Notes under the pieces: model-generated
What the model was told of the DNA's origin: nothing
Databases searched by the model: none
Seen by the model: the letters and a program-made list of their open reading frames with translations, nothing else
Part shown: positions 4,180 to 47,824 of the stretch, in pieces
Position numbering within the stretch: the first letter of the stretch is position 1
Layout: every line of letters starts with the position of its first letter
NCBI GenBank assembly: GCA_017569285.1
Contig: CP069419.1
Span: forward strand, 2,852,001 to 2,916,000
From: Clostridiales bacterium
Lineage (GTDB): Bacteria > Bacillota > Clostridia > Christensenellales > Aristaeellaceae
Length of the DNA stretch: 64,000 nt
Direction: 5' to 3'
Translations under genes and position numbers: made by a program

Positions 4180-4209
4180 TTGTCAAATCCGACTTCATTG
4201 TGATATAAT
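4180..4209 (+). promoter_or_regulatory. Promoter of first (broken) tRNA-Ser copy
   Basis: TTGTCA (4180-4185), 18 bp, TATAAT (4204-4209). The tRNA-like sequence begins 15 bp after the -10 box, so the broken copy is probably still transcribed. Confidence 0.75.
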
Positions 4210-4223
4210 TCCGCCGTTGCCAT

Positions 4224-4428
4224 GGAGCGGTATCGAAGTGGTCATAACGGGGCTGACTCGAAATCAGTTTGACGGCAACGTCCGTGGCAAACGAGCCGAA
4301 TGTCAGCGCAGTGCGCTGTCCGGCGAAGCCGGAAATGAGGCGAGTTTGTTAGCGCGAAAGGGAGAACGGAGTCCGCTCCAAGGACTCCGGGCGACCATTG
4401 AGCGAACGGGGCTTCGAATCCCACCCGC
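4224..4428 (+). pseudogene. tRNA-Ser(CGA) copy interrupted between variable arm and T arm
   Basis: From 4224 the sequence matches the intact tRNA-Ser at 4517 through acceptor 5' strand, D arm, anticodon loop CTCGAAA and most of the variable arm. At about 4284-4288 it diverges into an inserted structured repeat. T-loop sequence (TTCGAATCCCACCCGC) reappears near 4413-4428, but the acceptor 3' strand CTCC and the CCA are missing. Maturation into a normal tRNA is therefore unlikely. Confidence 0.8.
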
Positions 4429-4430
4429 AA
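4284..4430 (+). repeat. Structured repeat, copy 1 (tRNA-Ser-associated)
   Basis: Runs from GTGGCAAACGA to CCCACCCGCAA. Hairpins: CAGCGC/GCGCTG (4304-4318), CCGGC-GAA-GCCGG (4320-4332) and GGAGTCC/GGACTCC (4368-4388). A longer-range pair CAAAC (4288) with GTTTG (4344) encloses the first two. Copy 2 at 4674 has the same layout with different stem bases, which is what selection on RNA structure produces. No coding potential was found. Function unknown. Confidence 0.75.
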
Positions 4431-4437
4431 TTATTAT

Positions 4438-4464
4438 TGCACCTGCAGAAGCAGGTGCATTTTC
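4438..4464 (+). terminator. Terminator-like hairpin between the tRNA-Ser copies
   Basis: TGCACCTGC (4438-4446), loop AGAA, GCAGGTGCA (4451-4459), then TTTT. It would end transcripts of the interrupted tRNA copy and its repeat. Confidence 0.75.
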
Positions 4465-4472
4465 CATTTTCC

Positions 4473-4502
4473 TTGTCAAATCCGACTTCATTGTGATATA
4501 AT
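4473..4502 (+). promoter_or_regulatory. Promoter of intact tRNA-Ser
   Basis: TTGTCA (4473-4478), 18 bp, TATAAT (4497-4502); identical to the promoter of the first copy. The tRNA starts 15 bp downstream. Confidence 0.85.
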
Positions 4503-4516
4503 TCCGCCGTTGCCAT

Positions 4517-4605
4517 GGAGCGGTATCGAAGTGGTCATAACGGGGCTGACTCGAAATCAGTTTGACGACAACGTCACGTGGGTTCGAATCCCACCCGCTC
4601 CGCCA
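4517..4605 (+). tRNA. tRNA-Ser, anticodon CGA
   Basis: GGAGCGG (4517-4523) pairs with CCGCTCC (4595-4601), discriminator G4602, encoded CCA 4603-4605. The anticodon loop CTCGAAA gives anticodon CGA (reads UCG serine codons). A long variable arm (GACG/CGTC stem) is typical of tRNA-Ser, and the T arm is GTGGG-TTCGAAT-CCCAC. It is followed by a rho-independent terminator. Confidence 0.97.
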
Positions 4606-4610
4606 ACAAA

Positions 4611-4640
4611 AACGCTCTCCCCTTGTGGGAGGGCGTTTTA
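4611..4640 (+). terminator. Terminator of tRNA-Ser
   Basis: AACGCTCTCCC (4611-4621) pairs with GGGAGGGCGTT (4627-4637), then TTT. It begins six bases after the encoded CCA. Confidence 0.85.
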
Positions 4641-4673
4641 TGTTGATGCAGGGGGGAGAGAACCCACGTGCAC

Positions 4674-4814
4674 GTGGCAAACGAAGGAAGCGTCTCCCCG
4701 GTGGGGAGTGCCGAAGGCAAGCGACCTGAGTTTGTTAGCGCGAAACGAGCATCGAGCGCGCCCCAAGCGCGAGAGGCGACGATTGAGCGAACGGGGCTTC
4801 GAATCCCAACGCAA
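4674..4814 (+). repeat. Structured repeat, copy 2
   Basis: Shares with copy 1 (4284) the segments GTGGCAAACGA, GAGTTTGTTAGCGCGAAA and CGAACGGGGCTTCGAATC, and ends in CCCAACGCAA. The equivalent hairpins have changed bases but intact pairing: CTCCCC-GGT-GGGGAG (4694-4708), TGCC-GAA-GGCA (4709-4719) and CGCGC/GCGCG (4757-4771). CAAAC (4678) again pairs with GTTTG (4730). The GAA loop is the same in both copies. It is not inside a tRNA here, but CACGTGG at its left end resembles the tRNA-Ser T-stem junction. Confidence 0.75.
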
Positions 4815-4867
4815 GCTCAATAGTCGCAGCTCCACACTGTGGAGACTGCTTCTTTTCGCTTGACCTC

Positions 4868-4907
4868 AGAACCGATGAAATTTCCGCCACAGGCGGTCAT
4901 CGGTTCT
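4868..4907. other. Long hairpin of unknown role
   Basis: AGAACCGATGA (4868-4878) pairs perfectly with TCATCGGTTCT (4897-4907), enclosing a second stem CCGCC-ACA-GGCGG (4884-4896). No T-run follows on either strand. The surrounding 4815-5020 holds no gene. Confidence 0.6.
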
Positions 4908-46981: not shown

Positions 46982-47824
46982 ATGCCAAGGACAGCAAGAA
47001 GAATCAATGAATCAAATATCTATCATGTGATGCTGCGTGGGGTCAACAGACAGAATATATTTGAGGAAGACGCGGACCGATATCATTTTATGTCCGTGCT
47101 TGCTTTATGCAAAAAAATATCCGGCTTCCGGCTGCATGCATTTGTCTTGATGTCAAATCACATTCATTTGTTGATTGAACCGCATGAGGAAGCACTGGAT
47201 ATGATCTTCAAAAGAATCGGGACGAGATATGCTGTATGGTATAACCGGAAGTATCAACGAGCCGGCCATCTGTTTCAGGATCGCTTCAGGAGCGAAGCCG
47301 TCTCCACAAACCAATACTACCAAACAGTTCTGAGATATATATTGCAGAACCCGATGAAAGCCGGGCTGGAGAAACACCCGGGAGAATACAGGTGGAGCAG
47401 TTATCTCGCATATGAGAACGGGAAAGGGACCATAACGGATACACAATACGCAATTGATCTGTTTGGCGGCAGAGAAGCGCTGGTTCAATACCTGAAACAG
47501 GATAATGATGATATGGCTATGGATGAAGGGGATCATGACTGGCGGCTTCGGGATGATGTGGCTGGACAGATCATGGAGAAGATAACCCAGTGCGCATCCG
47601 CCTCTGATTTCCAAAAGCTTGATTTGGAACTACAGAAGAAATATGCTGGTGAAATGTATCGTGAAAGACTTTCAATGGGTCAGATTGCCCGATTGACTGG
47701 CATGTCCAAAACAACAGTTTTCAGAGCTGTTCAACAAATCAAGGACGATCCAACAGAAGAAAGTAAGTTGACTTTAAATGAATCTGAAACCGATTTGTTA
47801 TATAATGCCGGAATAATTTGGTAG
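46982..47824 (+). CDS. REP-associated tyrosine transposase (RAYT, Y1_Tnp family)
   Basis: A 280-residue protein. The Y1/HUH transposase core has SNHIHLLIEP (metal-binding His-x-His) and QYYQTVLRYILQNPMKAGL (catalytic Tyr). The opening ARRINESNIYHVMLRGVNRQ is the RAYT signature. A C-terminal helix-turn-helix (MGQIARLTGMSKTTVFRAVQ) may bind DNA. RAYTs nick single-stranded palindromes and are single-copy domesticated enzymes linked to REP spread. ATG 46982 follows AAGGTGAT. Flanked by matching palindromes. Confidence 0.93.
   Translation: MPRTARRINESNIYHVMLRGVNRQNIFEEDADRYHFMSVLALCKKISGFRLHAFVLMSNHIHLLIEPHEEALDMIFKRIGTRYAVWYNRKYQRAGHLFQDRFRSEAVSTNQYYQTVLRYILQNPMKAGLEKHPGEYRWSSYLAYENGKGTITDTQYAIDLFGGREALVQYLKQDNDDMAMDEGDHDWRLRDDVAGQIMEKITQCASASDFQKLDLELQKKYAGEMYRERLSMGQIARLTGMSKTTVFRAVQQIKDDPTEESKLTLNESETDLLYNAGIIW

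Follow-up and report, generated by a model that had tools for sequence, protein, structure and literature searches.

The window, a stretch of 64,000 nucleotides from a Clostridiales bacterium (contig CP069419.1, positions 2,852,001 to 2,916,000), contains two close copies of an approximately 120-bp repeat, at 4288-4409 and 4678-4794. Both are found beside tRNA-Ser sequences. The features of the locus are:

4180..4209, + strand: promoter-like TTGTCA-18-TATAAT of the split tRNA copy (11 of 12 match); the pattern recurs at 4473-4502
4224..4287, + strand: 5' part of an interrupted, duplicated tRNA-Ser copy, ending in ...CGTGG (by comparison with the intact tRNA-Ser)
4288..4409, + strand: element copy 1, CAAACG...GAACGG, with a Y domain of two hairpins and a domain with a single hairpin
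4413..4428, + strand: remnant of the 3' half of the T arm, TTCGAATCCCACCCGC; the remaining acceptor end is absent
4438..4459, + strand: terminator-like hairpin 3' of the split tRNA-Ser copy
4517..4605, + strand: intact tRNA-Ser(CGA), between copies 1 and 2
4660..4677, + strand: inverted T-stem piece of 11 bases, GAACCCACGTG, then CACGTGG, immediately left of copy 2 (by eye, together with longer mirrored pieces at other loci)
4678..4794, + strand: element copy 2, behind the tRNA terminator
4798..4807, + strand: T-arm remnant TTCGAATCCC, to the right of copy 2 and to the left of the minus-strand element that faces it
about 4808-4907, - strand: distantly related element of another class, a long hairpin plus domain 2 with the stem AAGC GAAA...TTGA GCTT

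An earlier note on this DNA had rightly placed two copies with fixed segments here, but its size of about 145 bp was too large; the element proper measures about 117-122 bp. The T-arm-like ends which it described are present, but they are remnants of the flanking host tRNA rather than parts of the element. Nor does copy 1 split the tRNA exactly between the variable and T arms, as had been proposed. The break falls after the fourth base of the T stem 5' strand (between GTGG and the following G, tRNA position 65), and the split tRNA copy has lost its acceptor 3' end. The sequence GAGTTTGTTAGCGCGAAA is found in the genome six times exactly and twice with one mismatch; the control read backwards is found twice within three mismatches. 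The minus-strand element at 4808-4907 has a fold z of -6.2 with RNA and -7.5 with DNA parameters. An inverted-repeat search of 4480-4720 returned no pairs of at least 14 bases, a length below which the 11-base T-stem piece falls.

Fold and covariation

Seven of this genome's eight close copies share a single plan in their lowest-energy RNA fold; the eighth, L008, deviates outside the hairpins. Domain 1 consists of CAAAC, GA, three variable pairs, AA and two pairs, then two hairpins, and is closed by GTTTG; one of its hairpin loops is AGT and the other is GAA. Domain 2 consists of CGC, GA and AA, a long variable hairpin (loop GCYCCAA), and the closing TT, GA and GCG. Comparison of the window's two copies agrees with the earlier description: pairing survives in all three hairpins although their sequences differ, GAA is the loop of hairpin 2 in each copy, and the first two hairpins are enclosed by CAAAC/GTTTG. 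None of 200 shuffles folds as well as copy 1 (RNA z -5.5). Copy 2 alone folds weakly (z -1.7; 13 of 200 shuffles are equally good), and its second domain takes a different fold under DNA parameters.

A covariance model was built from the eight close copies. A search with this model of 71 of 107 loci at E 1e-9 gave 89 matches, 73 of them distinct. Pairing is kept in 95.7% of the 2400 pair cells of these 73 sequences, and double-sided changes are seen at 28 of the 34 pairs. The covariation score, which is the main evidence for the fold, is 0.484, against a shuffle mean of 0.150 (none of 500 shuffles reaches 0.484) and at most 0.075 for slid partners; it should be noted that this alignment is biased towards the structure of the model. 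A MAFFT alignment of the eight copies, made before any structure was assigned, already has double changes at 18 of the 34 predicted pairs. Among the model matches, whose selection leans to structure, no copies lacking the paired changes were seen.

The tandem G-A internal loops are near-invariant (68/73, 70/73, 73/73 and 72/73). A G-A loop becomes a C-T mismatch when the opposite strand is read, which assigns the fold to the sense strand; the energies agree, with the sense strand more stable than its complement (-58.9 vs -44.5 and -46.0 vs -37.7 kcal/mol). The near-invariance of these loops suggests selection on a single strand in its folded form. Watson-Crick pairs make up 2116 of 2264 cells, with 54 G-T and 30 A-C; a further set, comprising 93 domain-2 hairpins, has 11 G-T and 3 A-C. 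The G-T share is 2.4% in the element and 7.3% in tRNAs (65/893 cells in 39 tRNAs from the examined loci), a control limited to the G-T share since ARAGORN brackets hold no mismatched pairs. Low G-T leans to DNA, whereas the excess of G-T over A-C leans to RNA, or at least leaves RNA possible. The conserved fold with covarying stems proposed earlier is upheld by the 73 sequences and their G-A loops, but it need not be a fold of RNA; it is compatible with RNA and single-stranded DNA alike.

Insertion sites and inheritance at tRNA genes

A T-arm motif lies within 30 bases to the right, in the same orientation, in 32 of 71 distinct copies, compared with 321 of 20,000 random windows from the same loci; the motif list was drawn up after the loci had been seen. 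The right-hand motif is absent in the other 39. In a stricter parse, 18 of 45 copies match one nearby intact tRNA by both flanks, all in the sense orientation (Ser 8, Pro 5, Val 5); these are not 18 independent insertions. In the 18, the break follows GG and falls between tRNA positions 45 and 68; for Val it is in the variable loop, for Pro and Ser in the T stem, and 1-3 target bases are replaced there. No clean target-site duplication could be defined. Ala, Arg and Asn tRNAs are also associated with copies, by eye or as neighbours, and at Ala and Arg the T-arm pieces agree by eye with the adjacent tRNA.

The T-arm pieces are best read as target because they match whichever tRNA adjoins (Ser, Val, Pro; Ala and Arg by eye). 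This speaks against both descent of the element from tRNA-Ser and mimicry of that tRNA, and it favours the other possibility raised at the same time, namely that the tRNA 3' part is a target (32/71 with a T-arm, 18/45 matched on both sides). Other copies do sit at tRNA-Ser genes, a point that the note had proposed to check, but also at Pro, Val and further tRNAs; placement is non-random without being confined to tRNA-Ser.

A functional tRNA intron was considered and rejected: the split copies in the window and in L079, L088 and L092 have no acceptor 3' end, and the split tRNA-Val copies of L042 have broken stems (by eye). When the flanks were joined across the element, no tRNA was found in 54 rows. 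In genome G005, split tRNA-Val copies with altered stems lie beside an intact tRNA-Val (partly by eye). Two structural classes occupy one tRNA-Val junction in different genomes (L037, L077), both ending in CGGA (by eye).

Other positions are also used. The insertion site of L074 is inside a D loop. In L034, L046, L062 and L039 the element lies behind a tRNA terminator, within a mirrored partial tRNA 3' end (by eye). Many copies that have no T-arm sit within other repeats, including a large hairpin module, 7-base repeats and a tandem array of the element itself, and relatives of the element are found after stop codons.

Several of these loci have peculiarities of their own. The tandem array (L086, 2422-3443) is spacer-free, and in it GATC/GATC replaces CAAAC/GTTTG. 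In one MAG (L065, L066, L072, L075, L076, L093, L097, L098, L102) many copies are found within or next to GAGAGTG-type repeats of 7 bases, and their closing helix has changed to GAGCGAGC / GCTCGTT. The tRNA-Ser terminator hairpin is extended by an inverted acceptor/T-arm copy in L185, L192, L046 and L062, so that it mirrors the tRNA 3' end; in L185 and L192 the mirrored end is present without the element, and the window retains just the 11-base piece of such a mirror. A tRNA-like 3' end stands beside copies in L007, L034 and L105, with no tRNA called by Rfam, nor by ARAGORN in L007 and L034; L034 has a weak sub-threshold match to a tmRNA 3' end.

The intact tRNA-Ser locus was taken from 30 genomes, in 27 of which a pattern recovered the full tRNA. 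The element lies within 420 bases of it, on either strand, in eight of the 27 (G000, G001, G002, G005, G008, G017 and G024, plus G036 in the opposite orientation); among the 19 without it, the sequence available downstream is short in G025, G030 and G009 (11-61 bases) and in G031 (254 bases). The upstream CDS end is as in the window (by eye), and the element absent, in G031, G023, G011, G021 and G004. In G031 part of the tRNA is mirrored, with arms of 28 bases that are 89% complementary, without the element.

A tree of the copies was built from 64 rows, and 32 of its 61 inner branches are unresolved; in it, L101 and seven tRNA-Ser copies belonging to several species form a single group. Few insertions and much vertical descent are therefore likely at the tRNA-Ser site. 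The window's copy 2 is placed outside this group, in what is a weakly resolved tree. Copies at tRNA-Val and tRNA-Pro are dispersed over the tree, and the site label changes 30 times on it (labels were given by hand, with no control). Old insertions passed on by descent are likely, and so are repeated insertions into the same positions of tRNAs.

Distribution across genomes

With permissive filters, the model finds 19 matches in this genome at E 0.001, and 15 of these score at least 56 bits. The earlier note had proposed a covariance-model search of the genome and its relatives. At E 0.01 with stricter filters, this search gave matches in 29 of 61 genomes, every one in the window's genus (29/37); the 24 genomes of the order that belong to other families gave none. 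Matches per genome range from 0 to 36 (E 0.01); the eight genus genomes without a match at this threshold are 57-89% complete. An exact pattern was found in 45 stretches of a collection of 84,980 species genomes; the titles of all 45 name Clostridia, Clostridiales or Lachnospiraceae bacteria, and many of the 45 come from ruminant guts. A wider superfamily with a common domain 2 (ACC GAAA ... TTGA GGT TGCG) has 15 matches here and is present in 28 of the 37 genus genomes; its pattern read backwards gave no match.

Searches of phage and plasmid records with copy 1 as the blastn query gave no match. One copy lies on a 45.5 kb IMG/VR contig (L107), adjoining a tRNA-Pro-like 3' end; the contig may be prophage or host DNA. 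At gathering score, Rfam 15 reports tRNA and rRNA only and no family on the element, where matches are all sub-threshold. Among the open-licence papers listed by the literature searches, none was recognised as dealing with this repeat.

Probable mobility, alternative explanations and known systems

The best reading of the repeat is as a small mobile element of about 120 bp which is non-autonomous and structure-dependent, in that its sense strand must fold for recognition. The probability of this reading is put at roughly 0.6. It is preferred because a fold of one strand is kept by covariation and fixed G-A loops, because copy number differs between species and one tRNA locus is polymorphic, and because sense insertions follow GG in three kinds of tRNA with the loss of 1-3 target bases.

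The best surviving alternative is a structured non-coding RNA, a transcribed unit (in the window running from the copied tRNA promoter to its own terminator) yielding a small RNA that perhaps touches tRNA processing. Promoter-like (11 of 12) and terminator-like sites do surround copy 1, and the split tRNA-Ser copies of L079, L088 and L092 are likewise flanked by promoter-like sequence and a terminator-like hairpin (by eye). The strand-specific fold with its G-A loops and the excess of G-T over A-C (54 vs 30; 11 vs 3) also suit an RNA. However, the contexts of the copies are diverse, from other repeats, 7-base repeats and tandem arrays to relatives after stop codons; eight of 37 genus genomes (57-89% complete) have no match at E 0.01, the G-T share is 2.4% where tRNAs have 7.3%, and no Rfam family reaches gathering score. 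A non-coding RNA is thus considered unlikely. Passive spread by replication slippage is less probable again. It would involve hairpin-templated strand switching without a dedicated enzyme, stem changes being matched via quasi-palindrome correction. Mirror copies of tRNA 3' parts next to terminators and elements (by eye; in L185 and L192 by inverted-repeat search) and near-perfect stems (2116/2264 cells Watson-Crick) are what slippage might leave, but correction should remove the G-A mismatches, which are near-invariant, and the GG insertion position recurs in the tRNAs of several species.

It is very improbable that a host RAYT or IS200-type transposase moves the element, as happens with REPs and palindrome-type derivatives: Y1 transposase genes are present in 24 of 37 genus genomes, high-copy ones among them, but the loci around Y1 genes (31 of 32 searched) hold only three model matches, in L135 and L121, GGGAC-type palindromes stand at the RAYT-like gene in 21 of 28 tblastn rows, the seven of these 28 rows flagged by a loose element motif (six without the palindrome pattern) proved on inspection to contain other palindromes (TTGACAGAGGGACGGGG...) and chance or unrelated motif matches, and in G032, which is 91% complete and carries 11 copies, no Y1 gene was matched.

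Individual enzymes were also weighed as mobilisers. RAYT was rejected as RAYT-like genes carry their own palindromes and not the element. A palindrome-type derivative of IS200/IS605 does not fit, there being no ends in common with resident IS200 at the examined loci; the short-Y1 (IS200-like) loci L108-L114 gave no model match, and the gene surroundings in L108, L111 and L112 were read by eye. Reverse transcriptase (PF00078) is present in some copy-bearing genomes, such as G005 and G027, but was not found in G000, G001, G002, G008, G023 and G036, which are near-complete and have 16-36 element matches each; these six make a SINE-like retroposon unlikely. The IS110 transposase (PF01548) is present in G001, G002 and G024 but was not found in high-copy G000, G008, G023 and G036, and an IS110/IS1111 derivative is accordingly unlikely. 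Among ORFs near copies at 45 loci, no family occurs in more than four loci, and the widest clusters share the same tRNA sites. No enzyme for the element was found among these candidates: the resident genes for RAYT, IS200, IS110 and reverse transcriptase are all a poor fit.

Small hairpin elements are common, and the mechanism by which they move is mostly unsolved. If the repeat is a mobile element, an enzyme would recognise the folded strand, most likely as single-stranded DNA, for instance at a replication fork, and would join it 3' of GG. The preferred sites may themselves be hairpins, such as the tRNA T-arm region, tRNA-derived palindromes and other repeats. Surviving insertions would lie mainly in spare or palindromic duplicates of tRNA 3' ends, and an intact tRNA would therefore remain adjacent. 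The 3' end would be CGG or CGGA, common to the two structural classes at the same tRNA-Val site. A bolder and more doubtful proposal, which we offer tentatively, is a new class of bacterial mobile element comprising several structural classes with one 3' domain, in which a G-A-stabilised folded single strand would be the transposition substrate, the hairpin-rich 3' part of tRNAs the target, and the enzyme of an undescribed kind. Since the family has some 70 distinct copies with a well-defined fold, a target that recurs and a polymorphic locus, it becomes possible to test which strand moves, what rule governs the target and which enzyme acts. Inside one genus, tRNA 3' ends are shown to have been invaded, duplicated and mirrored.

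Double-hairpin elements are found in the mitochondria of Allomyces. For yeast mitochondria, a two-base AG target is reported for the GC cluster GC42 (PMC4478555), and for sponge mitochondria repetitive hairpin-forming elements are reported in spacers and inside rRNA genes (PMC2800124). Like the present repeat, these mitochondrial elements are tiny, built of hairpins and said to be mobile. They are organellar, whereas the present repeat is on a bacterial chromosome, has a fixed three-hairpin fold with G-A loops and inserts after GG in tRNA 3' parts. The likeness appears to be one of behaviour; common descent is no part of the claim.

Rickettsia palindromic elements are structured repeats of about 100-150 bp which enter genes and spacers. 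By description, they are alike in size, structure and entry into genes; they belong to another lineage. Integrative elements at tRNA 3' ends target the T-arm region and leave remnants of the tRNA 3' end at their border. Target and border remnants are alike here, but the present repeat is only 120 bp and has no coding sequence of its own. REP and REPIN sequences, which are moved by RAYT, are also bacterial hairpin repeats that are lineage-specific and intergenic, and in both cases a folded single strand is likely to be recognised; the present repeat differs in that it is not found at RAYT-like genes, which have their own palindromes. The window itself encodes a RAYT-like Y1 transposase of 280 aa (46982-47824, + strand), flanked by GGGACGGTCTTTTTCGTTCC-type palindromes which are presumably its own REPs. 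RAYT-like genes elsewhere in the genus have different palindromes, and a common leader, TTGTTCGCCTTGAGTT, lies upstream of those in L115, L121, L125 and L132.
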